A stretch of 20,683 bases of DNA from a virus: positions 1-20,683 of the IMG/VR virus record IMGVR_UViG_3300050821_016729; one strand, 5' to 3'. Shown piece after piece: positions 2,251-15,008 of this stretch; the first letter of the stretch is position 1, and each line of letters starts with the position of its first letter. The position numbers and the translations under genes are program-made. The notes below the pieces were generated by a model, which had not been told where the DNA came from, searched no databases, and saw only the letters and a list, made by a program, of their open reading frames with translations.

Positions 2251-4115
2251 TGGACCGGCGTCCCGTCCTCATAGACATATTTGCCGTTCACCACGCCAAA
2301 CGGTTTGCCATCCTTGTCGGTCCACTGGGCCTTAAAACCACTCCCGGCCGGTCCGGCAGGCGCCGCACCGCCCTCGACGCCATTCGGCCCAACCTTGTAT
2401 TTCTGGCCGCCGAAATCATAAGCCCCCTCGACGCGCGGCCGGGCGGTGTCGGGGTCGACATGAAAATGCTCCATGACTTCTCGAGAGCCGATGGCGTCCG
2501 TGACTTCCTGCGGCGACAGTAGATTGCGATATTTGTTGATCGTCGAGGTCATCGCGCCGCCGACCAGCACCTGCACGGCGTTGATATTGGCGCGCAACTG
2601 ATCCTTGGTCAGCGACGGATCGAAGTTCTTCTTGATCTCCTCGCGGTCGCCGAGCGCGCCAGCGACGCCGGCTCCGGTCGCCGCCTTGACGATTTCGTCG
2701 CCGACCAGCGACAGCGCCGTCTCGTAGGAGGTGACGTTCGGATTGCCGGTTTGCTTGCCCCAGGCCGCCGCGAGGCTGTTGAGCGTCTTGATGTCGGCGC
2801 CATCCGACAGCTTGTCAACGAGGCCCTTGAAAAAGTCGAGATGCTGGTCAAGTCGCACATAGGAAGCGATCGCGTCGGAATCCTTGCCGCTGGTCAGCTT
2901 CTTACGCGCCGCCTGCACTGCGGCGAACTTGGCCGGGTTGAAATCCGGGTTGAGCTTCTTGGCTTCCTCAAGCGCGCCGTCCGGGCCGTCCCAGCCCGGC
3001 TCGCGGGCGATCTGCAACTGGCCCGGCGCCGGCATCTGATAAGCGGCGAGCGCCTGCGCCTGCCAGTGCTTGTTGGCGTCGGTCAACGGCGGCAGCAGCC
3101 GCGCGCCGCCCTGCGACTTGAACGCGCCGTAGATCGCTGCCTCTTTCTTCATCCGATCGTCGGGCGAAGACGCCTGCCCTTCCGGCGAAGCGGCCCATGC
3201 GTCATATTGCGCCTTGGCCTGACCGGTGAAGCTGTCCTGCTCCTTCTCCTGCTTGTCTTTCTCAGCCTGATACTTCTCCAGATATTTGTCCGGATTGGCT
3301 TCGGCGAGCAGCTTGTAGACGCCCATCGTGTCACCGGCCGCCAGCGCCGCTTGATATTCTGGCGTCTTTTTAGCCTCGCCCTCAGCTTTAGCGCCGTCGA
3401 CCGCGCCTTGTATCTTCGCCATTTCGGCGTCCAGCTTCTCCTGCTTGATATTCAAGTCAGCCATGTTCTTGTCGCGCTGATCCTGTAGCTTCGCCCAGCC
3501 GAGCACGCCGTTCTGCTGCATCATCTCCAGCGACGTCTGATCCTTGAACGCCGTCGCCATGGCCGAGATGCGAGCGCGATAATCCGCTGTCTCCTCCTTC
3601 GTCAGATCGACATTGTTCTTCATGCGATCCTTGACCGACGAGAGCAGGTCTTTGTAGGCGTCGCGCTGATATTCGTAGAGCTTCTGCGTTTGCTCGTTGG
3701 CGTCTTTCCACTGCTGGTAGGCGGCCGTCGCGGCGGCGGTATCCTTCTGCTTGAAAGCCTGCATCACCGCCGCGCCGGCGTTCATCGCCGTCATCAGCGG
3801 CGTGCGCGTGAAATGGCTCGCCAGCATCGCGAACATCATCGCCAGCGATCCCCACTCCTCGATCGGGCCAGACGACTTCGGCGGAACGTAAGGGGCCGGT
3901 GGCTTGAAGACAGGCGCGGGATTCTTGGAGAAGAAATCGCTCTCGATCCGCTGGTTCTCGGCCCTGTCTTTATCGACGCTCTTGTCGTGCTCGGCCGTCG
4001 TGGCATCGATCTTGTCGGTGAACGCCTTCATCCGAGCGCCGCTGTCGTCAAGCGGGCTCGGCGCCGGGGCGAGCGGCGCGGCGGCGGGAGCGCTGGCGAG
4101 CGGGCTGGCGTCCAT
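2247..4115 (-). CDS. Probable ejection/internal virion protein (gp15-like), 622 aa
   Basis: The N-terminus (residues 1-26) is Ala/Pro-rich. A Pro-rich linker at 64-85 leads into a weakly apolar segment at 88-120, then long charged helical stretches (about 120-330) rich in Lys, Glu, Gln and Ala that suggest coiled coil. A more globular part at about 340-560 contains NPNVTSYETALSLVG at 458-472, a pattern I associate with injection-type proteins of alphaproteobacterial phages. I see no enzymatic motif. The ATG at 4115 has AGGA just upstream on the minus strand and lies 3 bp after the previous stop, and the stop overlaps the next start by 4 bp, so the pair is probably translationally coupled. Placement between a gp14-like and a transglycosylase-bearing gp16-like protein suggests a role in the periplasmic DNA-ejection tube. 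That role is inference. Confidence 0.75.
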   Translation of the reverse strand: MDASPLASAPAAAPLAPAPSPLDDSGARMKAFTDKIDATTAEHDKSVDKDRAENQRIESDFFSKNPAPVFKPPAPYVPPKSSGPIEEWGSLAMMFAMLASHFTRTPLMTAMNAGAAVMQAFKQKDTAAATAAYQQWKDANEQTQKLYEYQRDAYKDLLSSVKDRMKNNVDLTKEETADYRARISAMATAFKDQTSLEMMQQNGVLGWAKLQDQRDKNMADLNIKQEKLDAEMAKIQGAVDGAKAEGEAKKTPEYQAALAAGDTMGVYKLLAEANPDKYLEKYQAEKDKQEKEQDSFTGQAKAQYDAWAASPEGQASSPDDRMKKEAAIYGAFKSQGGARLLPPLTDANKHWQAQALAAYQMPAPGQLQIAREPGWDGPDGALEEAKKLNPDFNPAKFAAVQAARKKLTSGKDSDAIASYVRLDQHLDFFKGLVDKLSDGADIKTLNSLAAAWGKQTGNPNVTSYETALSLVGDEIVKAATGAGVAGALGDREEIKKNFDPSLTKDQLRANINAVQVLVGGAMTSTINKYRNLLSPQEVTDAIGSREVMEHFHVDPDTARPRVEGAYDFGGQKYKVGPNGVEGGAAPAGPAGSGFKAQWTDKDGKPFGVVNGKYVYEDGTPVQ

Positions 4116-4118
4116 GGA

Positions 4119-5324
4119 TCATCCTGTCGGCGTCGGAATGGACTTGAACCCCATCCCGGCCAGGCCACCGGCGAAATTGGCGATCGATTGGCTGAGCGCG
4201 GCGTCCTGCTGGATCGAGGTCTGCATCAGGCTCTGGTAAAGCTGAGCCGAGAATTCGCTCTCGCTGACGCCCTGCTGCAACAGATTGGTGGCGATCTGCG
4301 CCCCTTGGCTGACCGTCGTCTGGGCGAGATTGGCTAGATCCTGAGCCTCGGCGCTGGAGCCGCTTTGACCGCGTGCCGCATATTGCGAACGGATCGTCGC
4401 CGCAGCCGCGTCATGCGCCGCCTGCAGACCCGACGAAATGCCAGGCGGCAGCGTGCCCGACGTGAGATAATTCTGCAATTCCTGGCCCTGCTGGGCGAGC
4501 TGAGCCGCTTCGCCGCTGACCTGGCCCTCGAAGGCAGGCTTCTTGTCGCCGCTCAGAATCGACGACAGCAAACCGGCTCCGCTCGCCGCCAACGGCCCAA
4601 AGGTTTTCAGCGATCCAAGCAGCCCGGCGCCGGCCGGCGCAGCAGCCGGAGCCCCGGCAACCGGCGCGGCGGCCGCGACGCCATTGGCGGCGGTCGTCAG
4701 ACCAGCCGGCGCGGCGGATGAGCCGACGCCCGCCGCAGCGTCACCGGTCAACGCCGAGGGCGCCGAAGCGGCCTGGATCAGCGACGGATCGACCGTGCCG
4801 AATTCGCCGACCGAAGATGGCGCAGCCGCAACGCCCGCCGGCGCGGCGCCGGCAGCGGCCGAACCCGCCGATCCGGCGGTTGGCGCAGCGCCCGCTGCAC
4901 TGGGAAGCGCCGCCGCTCCGGGCGAGGCGATCGGCGCCGCGCCGCCGGCTGAGCCGGGAACCCCGGCCCCCAACGCGCCGCCGGCGCTCGCCGCTGGCGA
5001 CAACAGCGAAGCGAAAGAGCCGAGCCCGGCGGTGTCGGCGGCGGACAGACCGGAAGCGGCGACGCCCGCGTCAAGCTCCGGCGCCGCGGCGGCGAGATCG
5101 AGGCCGCCTGACAAGGAGGAACTCAGCCCGGCGATATCAGCGCTGGTCAGCGCCGCGCCCGTGGCGGTCGGCGCCGCGGCAAGAGCGGCCGCATCGACGC
5201 CAGCCGCTCCAGCAGCTGTGGCGTCCGCGGCGCCAGCCGCCGCGCCGCCAAGCCCGAGCGCGCCGCCGACGCCAGCCAAGCTGTCCGAGAGCGCCGCGAC
5301 GAGAGGAATGGATACGCAACCCAT
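4119..5324 (-). CDS. Ala/Gly-rich probable ejection protein (gp14-like), 401 aa
   Basis: I place the start at the ATG 5324-5322 (MGCVSIPLVAAL...), 2 bp after the GNAT stop; the longer open frame reaching 5396 would overlap the GNAT gene. The ribosome site is weak (GAGA about 7 nt upstream). Residues 1-255 are extremely Ala/Gly/Pro/Ser-rich, with several short apolar segments. Residues 265-401 are a helical, Gln- and Ser-rich domain (QLAQQGQELQNYL, then SQYAARGQSGSSAEAQDLA). This low-complexity apolar region plus short helical domain, directly before a coiled-coil protein and a transglycosylase protein, is the arrangement of T7 gp14, which forms the outer-membrane part of the ejection channel. 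The antisense strand is also open over a long stretch, a side effect of GCC/GGC repetition. The ejection role is an inference from context. Confidence 0.7.
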   Translation of the reverse strand: MGCVSIPLVAALSDSLAGVGGALGLGGAAAGAADATAAGAAGVDAAALAAAPTATGAALTSADIAGLSSSLSGGLDLAAAAPELDAGVAASGLSAADTAGLGSFASLLSPAASAGGALGAGVPGSAGGAAPIASPGAAALPSAAGAAPTAGSAGSAAAGAAPAGVAAAPSSVGEFGTVDPSLIQAASAPSALTGDAAAGVGSSAAPAGLTTAANGVAAAAPVAGAPAAAPAGAGLLGSLKTFGPLAASGAGLLSSILSGDKKPAFEGQVSGEAAQLAQQGQELQNYLTSGTLPPGISSGLQAAHDAAAATIRSQYAARGQSGSSAEAQDLANLAQTTVSQGAQIATNLLQQGVSESEFSAQLYQSLMQTSIQQDAALSQSIANFAGGLAGMGFKSIPTPTG

Positions 5325-6910: not shown

Positions 6911-9733
6911 TCACGCGAAGAAGGCGTGGTCCTCGGTGTAGCCTACCACGAGATCGGCCAAGGTGAAATCGGGGCTGCTGCTGGCGAAACGCAGGCCCAT
7001 CGAGAAGAAGGCATTGCCCTCAATGGACGTGCCCCAGACGTTCCACGCCGGCGGCGGCGAAGCAAAACTGACCTGGTTGAGGAACGGCTGCGAGACGCCC
7101 TGCGGCACGGTGATCATGTAGCTGTTGATCACACCGCCGCCCAACCCGGAGATCGCCGCGGTTAGCGAGCCGCTGATGCCGACCTCGGCGGCGGAATTGT
7201 CCTGCGCCTGGAACCAGACACCCTGACCGGCCTTCTCGATGAAGATGCGATCCGAGCCATAGAGCTTGGTGTCGAAACGCTTCTGCAGCGACGACGACGC
7301 TGCGCTGAACAGCGGATAGACCGAATTGCCGTCGGTCCCGTAAGCAAAATATTCGCTGCCCTGTTTCTGCGTCGAGATGAAGCTGAAGGAAACGGTCTGC
7401 GAAGTGACGACCCAGTCCTTCTCGTTCCATGTCGCCATGACGTTGCGCTTGGCGCCGGTGTCAGGATCGACGACCGTCATCAGCAGCATGTAATGCTTGA
7501 TGTTGAAGATCGTCGCAATCGCGCCGCAGGGCGTCACCGCGCCGACGGTCGGCGGGAAGATCGCATTGGTGAACAGCTGATCGAGCTTGCCGCTGATCTT
7601 GGTCGCCGCGCCGCCGTAGAGACCATAAATCCCGGTCGTATTGGCGAAGATCGTCGAACGGCCGAAGTCCTGCAGCGCATCGCGCCACGCGCAACCAGCC
7701 TGCGGATCGACGTTCTGATAGTTGAACGTCGTCGACACCGGACTGCCCGACGAATTGACATTGGAGACGACGCTGACCGAGCCATTGCCGAAAGCGTAGA
7801 GATAACCCGACGACTGGCGCACCTGCGTATATTGGAGGTCGAGGAAAGCGTCGGTATTGACCGCATTGACGCCGCCGTCCGAGGTGGCGAAATCGACGAA
7901 GGAACCCGGCGCCGAGACCTGCCAGTCGCCGCCCGGCGGCAGCGTCGAGGTCTGCGACGGCGCCGGATTGAAAATCCACAGCCGCGACAGAAACGTCTCC
8001 ATCACCGAGCCGCTGACGCCGAAGGGCATCAGCGTGATCGTCGCCGCAGCAGCGTTGTTGGCGCCGGGCGAAACCACGACCGCAGGCGCGGTCGTATAGA
8101 ACTGGCCAGTTGACATAACCTCGGCGGAAGCGATCGAGGTCGGCGCATAAAGCACTTCTGCGCCAGCGCCAGATCCCCCACCGCCGGAGAACGTGACCTG
8201 GATCGGCGAAGTGTAGCCTGTCCCGGCATTGGTGACGACAATGTAGCCAACCGAATCGCCATTGAGATAAGCGGTCGCCGCCGCGCTCGACCCGCCACCG
8301 CCGACGAAAGCCACGGTGGGGGCGGAGGTGTAGCCTGTTCCTCCGGACGTTAGATTGATCGAAGCGATCGTCGTCGCCGTCAGCACCGCGACCGCCGTCG
8401 CGCCCGCGCCGCCGCCTCCGACGATCGTCAGCAGCGGCACGGTGGTGAAGCCTGAACCACCGTTGACCACGGTTACGCCGCTCAAACTTCCGCCCGCCGT
8501 CAGATTTGCTGTCGCTGCGGCGCCAGACCCGCTGCTGCTGAAAACCAACACTTGCGGCGCCGACGTGTAGCCCGAGCCGGGATTGACGAGGTTAAACGAC
8601 GTCACCACGCCACCCGACACCGTCGCCGTCGCTGTCGCTCCCGACCCTCCGCCGCCAAGAAAAAAGACAAAAGTGCTGGCCGAACTTGCGTAGCCGGAGC
8701 CACCGCTGTTGCGCGACAAACTGGCGATTGAAGTCGGCGCAATGCCTGAAGCGAGACCTGACGGCGTCAAAACGGCCGAAGCCTCGGCGCCCGACCCATC
8801 GCCGACGATCGTGACCGATGGCGCCGTCGTGTAACCGGAGCCCTGATTCGTCACCACGATCGCCGTGATGACGCCATTGACGATCGTCGCCGTCGCCGCG
8901 GCGCCCGTTCCGCCGCCCCCACCGACAAACTGAACGCTGGCGAAAGAATAGCCGGCGCCGCCCGCCGTCACGCTCACGCCGGCAACCGTCGTCGCGGCGA
9001 GCGACGCGGTGAGAATGGCCGAAGACGAATTCGATCCGCCGCCGCTGAACGCCACCTGGACGACGTCGCCCGGCTGGTAACCGGAGCCGGAGTTGGTGAT
9101 GTTCATCTCAACGACTTCACCGCCAAGCACCACCGGGGTAATGGCGATCCCCGAACCGAAGCCGCCGTAAACCGTGAGCGTCGGCGGCGTCGAATAGCCA
9201 GCGCCGCCCGAGTCCAGCACGACACCATTGGGCGCCGCCGATCCGGCCGAATAAAGCAGCGCGCCATCCCAGGCCCAGAAATCGTTCGACGTGTTGCGAT
9301 TGCTGATCAGCAGATATTGCGTGCCCCACTGACGCGCGTATGGCAGCGCGCTGGTCGCCGCCTGATAGAAAAGACCGGGCGGGCCGATCTGTGTCTGCAC
9401 CATCGTCAAGACCTGAACCTGCACGGCGCTGCCATCGGACAGAAACACGGCGCAGTAGTAGGTCGTCGCGATGTTATAGAAACAGTGCCAGATGACCGTC
9501 AGGCCGGCCGGCGCGGTGAAGATCGGCGCGCCCTTGTCCCACACCGTGCGCAGATTGCCATCGCCAAGCCGGACGAAATTCTCGAGCCAGAGGAACTCAT
9601 TGTCGGCGATCGCCACCGCCGACGACTGAACGTTCATGCCGCCGAAGGGAAAAGGACTGTAGGTCTTGAACCCCGGCGGAAGCTGCAGCGTCTCCTGCGC
9701 CTTGGCGGAAATCTGACCGCGCGGATCAGGCAT
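6911..9733 (-). CDS. Tail nozzle/tail tubular protein B-like (gp12-like) with internal Gly-rich repeats, 940 aa
   Basis: The start ATG at 9733 is set by GGAGG 7 nt upstream and an 8-bp overlap with the preceding gene; the longer frame from 9766 lacks this site. The N-terminal block (about 25-175) reads PFPFGGMNVQSSAVAI, LWLENF and GDGNLRTVWDKG, a pattern found in gp12-like nozzle proteins of podophages, whose beta-propeller closes the short tail. Residues about 176-564 are about ten imperfect repeats of GSGYTSAPTV...GGGGSGA (separate entry). The C-terminal part (about 570-940) resumes the propeller-like sequence (SRLWIFNPAPSQ, GNGSVSVVSN, NIKHYMLLMTVVDPDTG, VMATWNEKDWVV, FAYGTDGNSVYPLF) and ends FTLADLVVGYTEDHAFFA. 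T7 gp12 is about 794 aa; the excess corresponds to the repeats. Assignment rests on sequence pattern and position after a gp11-like gene. Confidence 0.75.
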   Translation of the reverse strand: MPDPRGQISAKAQETLQLPPGFKTYSPFPFGGMNVQSSAVAIADNEFLWLENFVRLGDGNLRTVWDKGAPIFTAPAGLTVIWHCFYNIATTYYCAVFLSDGSAVQVQVLTMVQTQIGPPGLFYQAATSALPYARQWGTQYLLISNRNTSNDFWAWDGALLYSAGSAAPNGVVLDSGGAGYSTPPTLTVYGGFGSGIAITPVVLGGEVVEMNITNSGSGYQPGDVVQVAFSGGGSNSSSAILTASLAATTVAGVSVTAGGAGYSFASVQFVGGGGGTGAAATATIVNGVITAIVVTNQGSGYTTAPSVTIVGDGSGAEASAVLTPSGLASGIAPTSIASLSRNSGGSGYASSASTFVFFLGGGGSGATATATVSGGVVTSFNLVNPGSGYTSAPQVLVFSSSGSGAAATANLTAGGSLSGVTVVNGGSGFTTVPLLTIVGGGGAGATAVAVLTATTIASINLTSGGTGYTSAPTVAFVGGGGSSAAATAYLNGDSVGYIVVTNAGTGYTSPIQVTFSGGGGSGAGAEVLYAPTSIASAEVMSTGQFYTTAPAVVVSPGANNAAAATITLMPFGVSGSVMETFLSRLWIFNPAPSQTSTLPPGGDWQVSAPGSFVDFATSDGGVNAVNTDAFLDLQYTQVRQSSGYLYAFGNGSVSVVSNVNSSGSPVSTTFNYQNVDPQAGCAWRDALQDFGRSTIFANTTGIYGLYGGAATKISGKLDQLFTNAIFPPTVGAVTPCGAIATIFNIKHYMLLMTVVDPDTGAKRNVMATWNEKDWVVTSQTVSFSFISTQKQGSEYFAYGTDGNSVYPLFSAASSSLQKRFDTKLYGSDRIFIEKAGQGVWFQAQDNSAAEVGISGSLTAAISGLGGGVINSYMITVPQGVSQPFLNQVSFASPPPAWNVWGTSIEGNAFFSMGLRFASSSPDFTLADLVVGYTEDHAFFA
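8040..9210 (-). repeat. Coding tandem repeats: about ten Gly-rich GxGYTxAPxV units in the gp12-like protein
   Basis: Within residues about 176-564 the cores GGAGYSTPP, SGSGYQPGD, GGAGYSFAS, QGSGYTTAP, GGSGYASSA, PGSGYTSAP, GGSGFTTVP, GGTGYTSAP, AGTGYTSPI and TGQFYTTAP recur about every 40 residues. Each is followed by a beta-strand, then a GGGGSGA/GSGAAA turn and another strand ending near a V-T-N type segment. The DNA units differ by many silent and coding changes, so this is an old protein repeat rather than a recent tandem array. The likely structure is a chain of small beta units projecting from the nozzle, which is an inference. Confidence 0.85.
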
Positions 9734-9998
9734 TGCGCGCCTCCGCAGCCGCCATTTCGGCGTCAAGCACCTTCTGGAACGCTTCCTGCGCCTTGACGAT
9801 CGACATCGTCTGACCAGCGACGGCGGCGCGCGTCGAATCGTCTAAGCGGCCGAACGGCCGCGTCCCCGTCTCGATCAGCGCGTCGAGCAGCAGCGCCAGC
9901 GTCGCAGTGCGAACCGGTGTCTCAACGCGACGCGGATCGAGCCCGTCACGGATCACGCGAGCCTGCGCGATGGTGGAAGCGAGATGGTCCTGCGGCAT
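9726..9998 (-). CDS. Small helical hypothetical protein between tail-tube genes, 90 aa
   Basis: The ATG at 9998 shares one base with the stop of the gp11-like gene (TGATG), and the stop region overlaps the start of the gp12-like gene by 8 bp, which indicates coupled translation across all three. The protein looks wholly alpha-helical, with an ALLLDALIETG segment at about 34-44 and a C-terminal Ala/Glu/Lys helix (IVKAQEAFQKVLDAEMAAAEARNA). No domain is recognised. Its place between adaptor and nozzle genes suggests a small tail or assembly factor. Confidence 0.7.
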   Translation of the reverse strand: MPQDHLASTIAQARVIRDGLDPRRVETPVRTATLALLLDALIETGTRPFGRLDDSTRAAVAGQTMSIVKAQEAFQKVLDAEMAAAEARNA

Positions 9999-11207: not shown

Positions 11208-12338
11208 TCAGAGCTGCGTCATGTAGCTAGTGTCGGACGAGAAATAGCCCATCGTGGCGAGCGCCGTCACCAACGCACCAGCCGCGACGCTGGTGTTGGC
11301 GGTGATGTTCAAGAGCGGCGTGCCGGTATAGACACCGCCGTCGCGAACCACCCAGGCGGTGTAAGCCGGCAGCGTGCCGCCCGCAGCCGTCGCGGTGAGA
11401 AGCGCCTGACGGGTGCGCACCAGGCCCGCCTGGACCTGCACGTTGAGCACGGTGGAATTGGCCGTGGCCGGCTGATCGACGCCGGTCGCGATGACCTGCG
11501 TGCCGCCGGCGCCGCCGACGCCCGAGGTGCCGTTGGCATAGGTGCCGCTCTGCAGGCCGGTGATCGACCAGTTCATCACGGTCGTCGCGGCGGCCGACGA
11601 TCCGCCGCCGCCCGAGAAGGACAGCGTCGGCAGCGTCGTCGCCGAACCGGCGGTGAAGGCGATCGGATTGCCATGGTCGAGGCAGAGCAGCGCGGTGATC
11701 GTCTGCGAGCCGGTCAGCGTCGCAGTCGCGGTCGCGCCGGCGCCGACGGTGGTGCCGTTCAGACCTTCACGCGGATCGTTGACGAAGACGATCGTCGGCG
11801 CCGCGGTATAGCCGGCGCCCTGATCGACCAGCGTCACCGTCGAGACGGTGCTGCCCGACAACGTCGCATAAGCGGTCGCCTGCACGCCACCAGCCGGCGG
11901 CGCGGAAATCTGGACGATCGGCGGATAGGTGTAATTGGTGCCGGCGTTGCTGACGGTGACGGTCTGATTGACCGCGCCGCCGACAATCGCCTTCCACACC
12001 GAGCTACCGGCCGAGGCCGTGACGGTCGGCGCCGAGGTGTAGCCCGAGCCGACGTTGGTCAGCACCGCGCCGACCGCGCAGCCGTTCTGGTTGGCGATGC
12101 GGTAGTTGACGCCGTCGGCATAAATATATTCGAGGCCGCCGGCCATCACGCCGCCGCCGATGTTACGCCAGATCTGGGTGATCGGGTCGAACTGCTGGAG
12201 CGTCGAATAGATGCCGGTCCTGATCATGTACCAGCCGGCGGGCTGGATGATCTGAACCTGCCCCGCCTTGAGCGTGACGACGTTGGACACGACCCCCTTG
12301 AGAGACGGGGTGAGGCCAGTACCGGAAAACAGACCCAT
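11208..12338 (-). CDS. Post-capsid structural protein with GYTxAP repeats, 376 aa
   Basis: The ATG at 12338 has GGAG 8 nt upstream and starts 12 bp after the capsid stop. Residues 1-75 (QIIQPAGWYMIRTGIYSTL, DPITQIWRNIGGG) form a beta-rich domain of a type I associate with phage proteins encoded directly after capsid. Residues about 93-250 carry GSGYTSAPTV, GTNYTYPPIV, GAGYTAAPTI and a LPTLSFSGGGGSSAAAT unit, the same repeat found in the gp12-like protein. The C-terminal 120 residues are Ala/Gly/Thr-rich beta sequence ending GYFSSDTSYMTQL. No enzyme motif is present. A head-fibre, decoration or minor capsid role is the likely reading given location and repeats, but the sequence does not settle it. 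Confidence 0.65.
   Translation of the reverse strand: MGLFSGTGLTPSLKGVVSNVVTLKAGQVQIIQPAGWYMIRTGIYSTLQQFDPITQIWRNIGGGVMAGGLEYIYADGVNYRIANQNGCAVGAVLTNVGSGYTSAPTVTASAGSSVWKAIVGGAVNQTVTVSNAGTNYTYPPIVQISAPPAGGVQATAYATLSGSTVSTVTLVDQGAGYTAAPTIVFVNDPREGLNGTTVGAGATATATLTGSQTITALLCLDHGNPIAFTAGSATTLPTLSFSGGGGSSAAATTVMNWSITGLQSGTYANGTSGVGGAGGTQVIATGVDQPATANSTVLNVQVQAGLVRTRQALLTATAAGGTLPAYTAWVVRDGGVYTGTPLLNITANTSVAAGALVTALATMGYFSSDTSYMTQL
11585..12060 (-). repeat. GYTxAP-type coding repeats in the post-capsid protein
   Basis: Three clear cores (GSGYTSAPTV, GTNYTYPPIV, GAGYTAAPTI) and one degenerate unit (LPTLSFSGGGGSS) lie in residues about 93-250. Their core and following GGGG/Ala-Thr turn match the repeats at 8040-9210, so the two virion proteins share a building block. 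Confidence 0.75.
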
Positions 12339-12350
12339 GGTCGATGCTCC

Positions 12351-13421
12351 TTAAATCACGGCCGGCGACGTGCCGGGAATATTCTGCCACGCGGCGCCGG
12401 TGATACCCGTCACCTGCGCGCCCGAGGACGGCTTGGCGCAGACGAGATCGGCGCAGGAGATCAGCACGCCGACGTCGGCGATCTGACCGACGTTGATCAG
12501 CGGCTCGAAGCCCGAGAAAGTCATCGGCGCGTATTCCGACATATACATGCCGGTGTAGCGGCTGTTGAGGAAGAAGGCCGAGCCCATCGGGCAGAAGGGA
12601 TCGGGGAAGATCGGCGTGTCGAGCACCTTGATGCCGCGAAAACCGGCGTTGACCACATCGTCCTTCTCGTAGATCGAGCGCGGCCGGGTCTGATACATCT
12701 CGAGGCTCATGAAATCGGTCATGAGCTCGGCCCAGTTGGCCGGGTTCATCACGCCGAAGTCGGGCGCCTCGCCGCCAGCGCCGGACTGGATACGCGCCAG
12801 AATCTGCGCCGCGCCGACGCGCGTCGTCACCGCAGCGCCGGAGTTGGTGATCAACTGGCCGGCCCAGAACTGGCCGGGCGAGCGGGTGATGCCGCCGTAG
12901 GACGGGACGTTGGAGCCGTCATCGAAGGCCTGGCTGAGCGAGTCCCAGATTTGCGTATTGGCGTAGTTGTTCGAATAGAGCGCCTGCGCATAGGACTGCT
13001 TCATCACCACCGCGGCGTCGCTCATCACGGCGCGCAGCTTGGGGATGACCACCTCGGAGCTTTGCAGGATGGCCTCCATCCCAAAAAAGCCAATCGGCAC
13101 CATGCCGAGCTTGAGGCTGAACTGCGCGTTCTGGATGGCCGCCTGATCGGTCGGCATCGGGAAGTTGCCGTCGAAGCCGCCCCACGAAAACTGAACGAAG
13201 CTGTTGCCCTGCACCGGGATGGTGATCTGGCTGACACCGCCGCGAGCCGCTTTGCTATTGGACATGAAAAGTGAAAGAAGAGGGTGGGACTGGTATATTT
13301 GAACATAGACACTGGGCAAAAAGGCTCGCCTCGTGATGGCGGAAAGTTGAGCCCCTAAAGCGCCAGATGGAGTGATGCCGGAACCTGTGAGTGTACTTAC
13401 CGGAGAATTGGGGTAGGCCAT
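12351..13421 (-). CDS. Major capsid protein, 356 aa
   Basis: This is the podovirus-type major capsid protein, expected to have the HK97 fold and to form the icosahedral shell. It begins MAYPNSPVSTLTGSGITP (a flexible N-arm), then has the long-helix region with AAIQNAQFSLKLGMVPIGFFGMEA, read here as a pattern of alternating strand and helix (residues about 93-118), the MSDAAVVMKQSYAQALYSN spine helix, a GVMNPANWAELMTDF segment, and a C-terminal strand series with FEPLINVGQIADVGVLI and DLVCAKPSSGAQVTGITG. Length suits the family. GAGG lies 6 nt before the ATG. The preceding gene is an HNH endonuclease ending 8 bp upstream. The first 55 codons have lower GC (about 50%) and different codon choice from the rest (about 62%). 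Confidence in the capsid call is high by pattern and neighbours (scaffold, portal). Confidence 0.85.
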   Translation of the reverse strand: MAYPNSPVSTLTGSGITPSGALGAQLSAITRRAFLPSVYVQIYQSHPLLSLFMSNSKAARGGVSQITIPVQGNSFVQFSWGGFDGNFPMPTDQAAIQNAQFSLKLGMVPIGFFGMEAILQSSEVVIPKLRAVMSDAAVVMKQSYAQALYSNNYANTQIWDSLSQAFDDGSNVPSYGGITRSPGQFWAGQLITNSGAAVTTRVGAAQILARIQSGAGGEAPDFGVMNPANWAELMTDFMSLEMYQTRPRSIYEKDDVVNAGFRGIKVLDTPIFPDPFCPMGSAFFLNSRYTGMYMSEYAPMTFSGFEPLINVGQIADVGVLISCADLVCAKPSSGAQVTGITGAAWQNIPGTSPAVI

Positions 13422-13440
13422 GATTTACCTCACATTCCGA
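13255..13440 (-). other. Low-GC, atypical-codon tract covering the capsid N-terminus next to the HNH gene
   Basis: Direct counts give about 42%, 60% and 48% GC in the three 60-bp lines from 13261 to 13440, against 62-63% in the two lines from 13141 to 13260. Codons here include GTA, AGT, ACA, TTA, ATA, AGG and CGA, which are scarce in the rest of the capsid gene. The change is abrupt at about 13258, near capsid codon 54. A tract of foreign composition next to a homing-type endonuclease is what co-conversion of flanking DNA leaves behind. Confidence 0.6.
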
Positions 13441-14200
13441 ACGATAGCGCGCCTAATACTGCGCTTGATTGACTGAATACTTCATGGCTGACGCCATGCT
13501 CGGTAAGAAGAGCTTTCGCCGCCACGATTTTATCCTCCAACCTCTGACCGCTGGGCTGCTGCACAACCCACAGTTCAAGATTTGAGAGATCGTTATTCAG
13601 CCTATCGCCATCGATGTGATGAACATTCTCGCCGGAACGTAATTTTCGCCCCAGCTTCTTCGCCATCTGCAAGCGATGCTCGAACTCATACCCGTCCTCG
13701 GTCTTGAGCACTCGATAACCGGTCTCAGTGATCCTTCCAGACCCCTGCTCAGCCCGCATGAGCCCCGCTTGACCGGCGTCGCCATTGATCCGAAGACGCG
13801 CGTAATGCATCTGGCAATAGCCGCGGCCAACAGCAGGTTTTTCGCAGCCATCAACGAGACACGGCACGCCGCGCGCAACCCGCTTGGCGATCACAAAATC
13901 GCCGAACGATCCCGTCTTATAGAATCGATTATAGTGAATGACGCACAAGCCGTTGTGCTTGTGCGGCTGATCGCAACCTTCCAGCGCGCACAACGCGCCG
14001 CGCGGCTCCATCTTCGGAACCTTGGCGTTCTTCGACGAGTGCGTTGCGCAAATCGTCCCGACCCGCACCGGATTATCGCAGCCGTCAATCGAACAGACCG
14101 ATTTGCAGGTTCCGCAAAAACGCTGCGGCCCCTTCGGGACGTCAATCGTCTCTCCGCACTTCACGCACGGCCTAGCAGCGTATGTGCGAAGATATTTCAC
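13430..14200 (-). CDS. HNH endonuclease with zinc-binding repeats, 256 aa, GTG start
   Basis: A free-standing phage HNH (probably homing) endonuclease that would nick or cut DNA near its insertion site. The C-terminal domain has FEHR (His175), VHHIDGD (193-199), N202-N203 and SNLELW (206-211), the full HNH signature. The N-terminus has a CxxC...CxxC ribbon (C12, C15, C29, C32) and three repeats with identical spacing C-x4-C-x9-C-x2-H at 36-54, 71-89 and 114-132, probable zinc-binding, DNA-reading units. The start is GTG at 14200-14198, overlapping the scaffold stop (GTGA), with AGGGGG/GGGAG upstream; the longer frame to 14350 lies inside the scaffold gene. GC is near 45-50% in sampled lines, below its neighbours, a sign of transfer. 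It sits between scaffold and capsid without breaking either. Confidence 0.88.
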   Translation of the reverse strand: MKYLRTYAARPCVKCGETIDVPKGPQRFCGTCKSVCSIDGCDNPVRVGTICATHSSKNAKVPKMEPRGALCALEGCDQPHKHNGLCVIHYNRFYKTGSFGDFVIAKRVARGVPCLVDGCEKPAVGRGYCQMHYARLRINGDAGQAGLMRAEQGSGRITETGYRVLKTEDGYEFEHRLQMAKKLGRKLRSGENVHHIDGDRLNNDLSNLELWVVQQPSGQRLEDKIVAAKALLTEHGVSHEVFSQSSAVLGALSFGM

Positions 14201-14811
14201 GCCCCCTGCGACTCCCTGACGAAGCGGTCGGGATCGCGGAAGAAGTCCGAAAGAACGTCGTCCTGGTAGCCGACCGGATCGCGGTGCAGCTTGACCAGCG
14301 CGTCGTCCTTGTCCTTCGAGCCGAACAGGTTGAGATCCTGCGGCGCCCATGTCGGCCCCTTGACCTGAGCCGGCGGCGTCTTCGAGGCGACCCAGGCGGC
14401 GGCGGCATCGACCGCAGCGGCCATATCGCCCTGCGCGCCCATTTCCTTGACGCGCGCGACGGCCTTGTCGAGACCCTCGTCAGTCAGATTGTAGTTCTTG
14501 CGCGCCTGTTCGAGCGCCGCGTCGATCGTCTGCTTGGCGGTCTGCTCGTCCCAGTATTTGCGATCGGCGGCGCGCGACTCTTCGAGCTTGTCGAGGCGCG
14601 CCCTGAGCGCTTCGTTCTCGGCCCGCAGCGGCGCAACCACCGGCTCGGCGACTTCGTCGACGGTCCGAATGTCCGGGAACTTGGCCTTGGCGGCCTTGCG
14701 GATGTCGGCGCCCAGCTTGCCGTCGGCCATCAATTCGGCAAGCAGCGCCTCGGCGCGAATCTGCGACTGGGTGGCGGGCTTGACGTCGTCGGCTTTCGGA
14801 GCGTCGACCAT
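14197..14811 (-). CDS. Probable scaffold (capsid assembly) protein, 204 aa
   Basis: The protein is highly charged and helical: residues 60-105 (VAPLRAENEALRARLDKLEE...) show heptad-like coiled coil, and residues 178-200 contain GYQDDVLSDFFRDPDRF. Phage scaffolds are small, acidic-to-neutral coiled-coil proteins that guide capsid assembly and then leave, and they are normally encoded just upstream of capsid, as here (only the HNH gene intervenes). The ATG at 14811 shares a base with the previous stop (TGATG) and has GAGG 8 nt upstream; an in-frame GTG at 14814 is the alternative. Recognition is by composition and position, not by a specific motif. Confidence 0.7.
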   Translation of the reverse strand: MVDAPKADDVKPATQSQIRAEALLAELMADGKLGADIRKAAKAKFPDIRTVDEVAEPVVAPLRAENEALRARLDKLEESRAADRKYWDEQTAKQTIDAALEQARKNYNLTDEGLDKAVARVKEMGAQGDMAAAVDAAAAWVASKTPPAQVKGPTWAPQDLNLFGSKDKDDALVKLHRDPVGYQDDVLSDFFRDPDRFVRESQGA

Positions 14812-15008
14812 CACTTAGCCCTCGGCGCCGAACCGCGCGAGCCGTCCTTGCCGACGTGCTCGAGCGACTTGATCCCGCTGACATCGCCCTTCGGCTGAGC
14901 GGACGGACGGGCGCCGATGTCCATCTTCTCGAACACCGTGTACTCCATCATGCCGCGATCGACCTTGACGTCACCGTCATACGCCTTAGGAAATTTGCCT
15001 GAAGTCAT
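14811..15008 (-). CDS. Small hypothetical protein, 65 aa
   Basis: The start ATG at 15008-15006 (MTSGKFPKAYDGDVKVDRG...) has GAGAGG about 10 nt upstream on the minus strand; a TTG further upstream would overlap the preceding stop. The sequence is charged and Gly/Ser-rich at the C-terminus (EHVGKDGSRGSAPRAK), with a helical centre (MMEYTVFEKM). No domain is recognised. It lies 14 bp after the Met/Pro-rich gene and is coupled to the scaffold gene by a TGATG junction, so a minor head-assembly role is plausible. Confidence 0.6.
   Translation of the reverse strand: MTSGKFPKAYDGDVKVDRGMMEYTVFEKMDIGARPSAQPKGDVSGIKSLEHVGKDGSRGSAPRAK

Follow-up and report, generated by a model that had tools for sequence, protein, structure and literature searches.

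In close relatives that differ in the HNH endonuclease gene lying next to the major capsid gene, the start of the capsid gene is far more diverged than the remainder: in five independent sets of such relatives, the capsid 5' synonymous sites differ by 31-72% whereas the rest of the capsid gene differs by 2-13%. This pattern lends strong support, from sequence comparison, to the proposal that capsid codons 1 to about 54 are an HNH-linked co-conversion tract. The explanation that we consider quite probable is that free-standing HNH genes have homed, with co-conversion of flanking DNA, into the gap separating the scaffold gene from the capsid gene, a site that has seen repeated rounds in which such genes invade, decay and are lost. 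Our starting point was a viral record of 20,683 bases, hereafter the window, by which we mean the whole stretch of DNA that was analysed.

The HNH gene between the scaffold-like and capsid genes

Read along the minus strand, the window presents a scaffold-like gene (14197-14814), an HNH endonuclease gene of 256 aa with a GTG start (13430-14200) and an intact major capsid protein gene of 356 aa (12351-13421), in that order. Four base pairs (GTGA) are common to the HNH start and the scaffold stop, 8 bp separate the HNH stop from the capsid ATG, and the capsid and scaffold frames are both open beside the HNH gene, so that the layout with unbroken neighbours described in the earlier note is exact to the coordinate. 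The capsid gene is assigned by its match to the phrog_9953 major head protein (9e-20) and by 37-38% identity to the annotated major capsid proteins of MW202825 and MW202753; the upstream gene gave no family match in Pfam/PHROG profile searches and is called scaffold because of its position alone, its homologue preceding the capsid gene in most relatives. A GAGG motif (13428-13431, minus strand), read directly and likely to act as the ribosome-binding site of the capsid gene, overlaps the HNH stop codon and is thus supplied by the HNH 3' end; L004, L036, L114, L126, L133, L135 and L142 have a purine-rich site in the corresponding position. Elsewhere in the window, two minus-strand genes (6911-9766 and 11208-12338) encode proteins with repeated glycine-rich GSGYTSAP-like units and PHROG matches to virion structural and baseplate proteins.

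The HNH protein consists of N-terminal zinc-finger-like Cys/His repeats followed by a nuclease domain that belongs to Pfam HNH_3 (PF13392; 2.6e-8, 33.8 bits against a cut-off of 24.8). Of the 12 PHROG families that it matches at E<=1e-5, 11 bear the name HNH endonuclease, and in the HNH motif with its catalytic His and Asn the residues H194, H195, N203 and N207 are invariant in 10 relatives. A search of solved structures by sequence yielded no match; the structure model (mean pLDDT 70.6) has as its best fold match I-HmuI (1u3e), at a Foldseek probability of 0.97 and a moderately significant E of 9e-3. The resemblance to I-HmuI is limited to the domain, because the capsid gene is uninterrupted and an Rfam search of the window returned no RNA family, hence no group I intron match, which sets this gene apart from intron endonucleases of the I-HmuI type. 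Rather, it is an intergenic gene of its own, with intact neighbours and neither intron nor intein, and full, deleted and absent states of it occur in the same gap among relatives. We therefore regard 13430-14200, judging by its sequence features, as a probable free-standing homing endonuclease gene.

The relatives compared comprise about 110 distinct loci (L-numbers), all from uncultured metagenome contigs except for one MAG contig; a scan of bacterial genomes for capsid relatives recovered a single MAG contig only, and a sequence search of viral contigs for relatives of the HNH protein recovered two, both distant. A full HNH gene lies between scaffold and capsid on the same strand in the window, L114, L116, L133 and L142 and on the opposite strand in L042, L080 and L104, and the HNH proteins of relatives are 23-42% identical to that of the window. 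In 100 related records, all nine HNH_3 genes found within 4 kb of a capsid gene adjoin it, and the same genomes carry further HNH_3 genes farther away. In L004-L008, L085 and L086 an internal deletion has fused HNH codons 1-7 in frame to codons 208-256, leaving an open frame of 56 codons, and this deleted type is identical in contigs that come from several metagenomes and diverge by up to 3% in the capsid body. L126 has HNH codons 1-5 fused, in a shifted frame, to the terminal codons of a gene resembling that of L133, L135 retains a C-terminal relic, and in L036/L039 only about 20 bp of the HNH end are left. Because diverged HNH lineages, both orientations and relics all occupy one gap, we read the site as recurrently invaded; because every relic keeps the HNH 3' end with the ribosome-binding-like site of the capsid gene, the same record suggests that an HNH gene, once established here, becomes difficult to lose cleanly.

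Several further features of this region were recorded. In L080 (3125-5788) the capsid gene lies between two different HNH genes in opposite orientation, and more HNH_3 genes occur elsewhere in the contig. An HNH gene directly follows the capsid gene in both L080 and L102, and family-wide the synonymous divergence of capsid codons ~343-356 is raised as well (0.62 against ~0.43); the capsid 3' end is possibly a second co-conversion site. A 79-bp spacer before the capsid gene in L001, L002, L003, L009, L011 and L012 forms a 27-codon ORF with conserved FIAL and EGVL residues; this ORF shares bases with the scaffold stop at one end (ATGA) and with the capsid start at the other (TGATG), and it could serve translational coupling. 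As a candidate HNH relic (in L001/L002/L003/L009/L012) it was rejected, being not HNH-like against shuffles. Matches to an HNH 3'-end pattern in L091, L094 and L086 added nothing new, the first two being due to chance and the third a duplicate type. The L086 contig also contains a further stretch that is about 34% identical to the capsid (4076-4437, reverse-complement coordinates), possibly a second capsid-like gene or a sign of a contig of mixed origin.

Divergence of the capsid start in close relatives

We call relatives discordant when they are unequal in HNH content, one having the gene or a larger part of it and the other a smaller part or none. L116, with HNH, differs from L068 at 21/45 synonymous sites in the tract and 14/276 in the capsid body (P=6e-12), and L114, with HNH, differs from L113 at 31/50 and 18/279, respectively (P=4e-18). 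The corresponding fractions are 0.66-0.72 and 0.10-0.13 between the relic carriers L004-L008 and L009/L011/L012 (P<=2e-14), 20/47 and 30/271 between L133, with HNH, and L126, with a short relic (P=1e-6), and 14/45 and 5/270 between the relic of L135 and L134, which has none (P=1e-9); the last pair shows 0% divergence across about 1.2 kb upstream. Divergence profiles along the locus peak at the HNH insertion and the capsid start and are low elsewhere, and the differences at the capsid start are mostly synonymous, so that the protein is hardly altered. The HNH-linked tract that the earlier note had proposed gains strong support from these near-identical pairs with and without HNH, though not from the base-composition argument on which it had been based.

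The right edge of the replaced stretch falls at codons 51-56 in 4/6 pair comparisons, at codon 26 in L134/L135 and at codon 71 in L126/L133; in the latter pair, both members of which have HNH sequence, the codons beside the HNH gene are alike and codons 26-71 differ. The scaffold side is mostly unchanged across pairs, with the exception of L116/L068, where divergence reaches 23% in the bin covering the scaffold end, and the earlier suggestion of one-sided repair consequently holds for most pairs but not for L116. Homing would be expected to leave an asymmetry of this kind with a cut placed within the capsid gene, since all DNA from the HNH gene to the cut has to be copied. In the window the approximate edge is placed by the pair edges and the GC3 change point at 13236-13275 (minus strand), a possible cut-site neighbourhood; a cut near 13258, as formerly put forward, is plausible in view of the four edges at codons 51-56, the other two lying at 26 and 71, and conserved DNA past codon ~54 could also fix the edge.

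Under the homing explanation, the enzyme would, during mixed infection, attack the capsid gene of a phage without HNH, nicking or cutting it a certain distance in from the 5' end, and repair would copy the donor HNH gene together with all DNA up to the cut site, replacing capsid codons 1 to about 50-70; repair that halts early would transfer the tract only. The HNH gene may later decay via internal deletion, its 3' end being retained because the ribosome-binding site of the capsid gene lies on that end, and repeated cycles would hold codons 1-~54 far more diverse than the remaining gene. Against this explanation, a donor search by nearest tract identified none for any tract, the nearest ones differing at >=0.33, and the right edges range over codons 26 to 71.

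For the window itself (tract codons 1-54, 13260-13421, minus strand; a probable co-conversion tract by its GC3 and its synonymous differences), a close HNH-free twin is absent among the relatives compared, and its HNH-tract link is for this reason drawn from its relatives. In a more distant comparison, that with L001, its HNH-free nearest relative in the capsid body, 26/46 tract sites and 45/257 mid-gene sites differ (P=1e-7). The alignment check that the earlier note had called for came out in the expected direction, L004/L006, of the HNH-relic group, being nominally nearest in codons 1-54 (0.51) and L001 in codons 61-356 (0.18), but it is not decisive, since the tract distances lie near saturation (0.51-0.57 for the five nearest). 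We infer from the relatives that the window's tract, too, is an HNH-linked replacement.

That the scaffold-capsid boundary might be a hot spot of homologous or modular recombination, with the HNH gene as a passenger and not the cause, is the rival that fares best, and we consider it unlikely. It draws on L011 and L012, both HNH-free with the same 79-bp spacer, which differ at 24/48 tract and 18/270 body sites, with 25% divergence in codons 1-54 against ~0-1% in upstream DNA, and on a milder tract excess in L041/L043; HNH is therefore not needed in the sampled genomes for such an excess, and short repair tracts, an unsampled nuclease or ordinary recombination would each explain these cases. The conserved DNA after codon ~54 could, moreover, by itself set where exchanges resolve. 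Against a hot spot stands the HNH-naive clade L014-L035, which has the same gene order, a 16-17-bp spacer and neither HNH nor relic, and in which many pairs show no excess. An excess is present in 5/5 discordant but only 2/11 concordant pair groups, which were counted by hand (Fisher P=0.005, an optimistic value because many concordant groups come from one clade). Where both copies were available in the same pairs, the first 54 codons of the portal, scaffold and post-capsid genes lacked an excess of this size, and the HNH genes within 4 kb sit at the capsid only, which likewise speaks against a hot spot. A haplotype-sharing permutation test returned an excess of shared runs that we have left unused, its pair set including related pairs of the HNH-naive clade; metagenome contigs may in principle include chimeric assemblies, though the deleted-HNH type recurs in seven of them.

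The synonymous character of the differences could instead reflect an arms race in which a recognition site within the tract is recoded under selection to escape cleavage, with no copying from a donor. Near saturation between all lineages and the occurrence of divergent tracts in HNH-free genomes too would suit such recoding. It is, however, difficult to reconcile with L134/L135, in which 14 of 17 comparable synonymous codons have changed together between flanks that are identical for more than 1 kb on each side, a block change that indicates one import event and not stepwise mutation; the tract also exceeds the length of one typical site, and we rate this reading as distinctly improbable.

Base composition of the capsid start

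A composition break near 13258, as the earlier note had it, is real, with the maximum-likelihood GC3 change point after capsid codon 62 (~13236; log-likelihood gain 22). Codons 1-54 have 51.2% GC and a GC3 of 0.48, against 63.6% and 0.87 for codons 55-356, so that the earlier figures of ~50% and ~62% captured the pattern and were about one point low. Among the 13 window genes checked, the capsid start contains the lowest 54-codon GC3 stretch (0.45) and the HNH 3' end the second-lowest (0.51); the HNH gene as a whole has 56.3% GC, its GC3 dropping from 0.75 to 0.48 toward the 3' end, and the dip is absent on the scaffold side, where the last 54 codons have 65% GC.

What did not survive is the further claim that low GC marks a segment imported with the HNH gene. 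HNH-free relatives with a low-GC capsid start had been named beforehand as the observation that would speak against it, and a GC3 drop of >=0.25 occurs in 13 of 83 HNH-free representatives (e.g. L041, L009, L045 and L050); likewise, twins with and without HNH have equal tract GC3 (0.73 vs 0.72; 0.60 vs 0.56). Low GC as a donor-segment marker was accordingly rejected. The drop is commoner in loci with HNH or a relic (8/13), and it is small or absent in L010, L040, L052 and others, L010 lacking it despite a capsid protein 91% identical. Low GC in the tract is thus common and not constant, and it is associated with HNH-visited lineages, yet not brought by the HNH gene.

The HNH-free representatives and the equal twins would also be expected if the low-GC start were a translation feature unrelated to HNH (a slow-codon ramp, an unstructured 5' mRNA or relaxed codon selection). 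Such a feature does not, however, explain the relatives with little or no drop, nor the contrast between codons 1-54 and upstream DNA in L011/L012, and the window's other structural genes have no comparably long dip; it already fails to account for the divergence spikes, and as an account of the whole we find it very unlikely. Error-prone repair after nicking, which would mutate the flank in place with no donor copying and is one of two possibilities proposed for yeast mitochondrial introns (PMC5378118), is hardly credible here, as random mutation would not produce in one step blocks so dense and so strictly synonymous as that of L134/L135.

Homing with co-conversion may also have a longer reach than the HNH genes themselves. 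We tentatively entertain that capsid codons 1-~54 are a persistent battleground, in which one unrelated homing endonuclease after another, together with the alleles resistant to them, sustains a standing pool of strongly diverged, protein-equivalent 5' alleles that are traded as whole blocks even when the nuclease gene does not move; if this were true, the nuclease would shape capsid population genetics long after its own loss.

Known homing systems and what the capsid tract means

Intronless homing has been studied mostly through laboratory crosses of T4, whose segD lies between the major capsid gene 23 and gene 24. For the free-standing nucleases of T4, distant cut sites and co-conversion are established, and the arrangement proposed here resembles that of the T-even Seg and Mob genes, known for intronless homing and marker exclusion, namely an intergenic gene beside essential genes with neighbours intact, flanking DNA that is co-converted and a cut site away from the gene (PMC2988022). 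The Seg enzymes are GIY-YIG nucleases, whereas the window gene is of the HNH_3 family with N-terminal zinc-finger-like repeats; and the T-even evidence comes from laboratory crosses, while ours is standing natural variation with decayed copies. I-HmuI and I-HmuII of the Bacillus phages SPO1 and SP82 are HNH homing enzymes too, the former being the best structural match, and competition over flanking markers has been reported for these phages (PMC2988022), but both enzymes are encoded in group I introns of a polymerase gene, and in the window no intron was found and the capsid gene is unbroken.

HEG-islands are groups of homing endonuclease genes that adjoin or bracket capsid and other essential genes and whose content at a given location is unstable (PMC10448857). 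L080, with its capsid gene bracketed by HNH genes, has this layout. In the window there is a single HNH gene and the downstream neighbour is not HNH, and its first ~54 capsid codons are hypervariable whereas the cargo of the islands is highly identical. In yeast mitochondria, diversity peaks beside mobile introns and has been attributed to co-conversion from outside donors or to mutagenic repair (PMC5378118); there the elements are mitochondrial introns, and here a free-standing phage gene with matched plus/minus genomes and relics. In lactococcal Skunavirus genomes, HNH genes are numerous and recur at particular locations, some intact and others truncated; most belong to the early-expressed region, and the main text of that report makes no mention of the capsid (PMC12724721). 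In a literature search confined to papers outside subscription, we found no report of a comparable capsid 5' tract.

The natural plus/minus pairs and decayed copies at the major capsid gene constitute an unusually clear record of a known homing type, from which tract length, sidedness and decay become measurable without culture. They illustrate that a low-GC stretch by itself is an unsafe sign of a foreign segment and that the footprint of a tract can outlast the nuclease gene. For capsid phylogenies it matters that the 5' end of this marker may have a history unlike that of the remaining gene.
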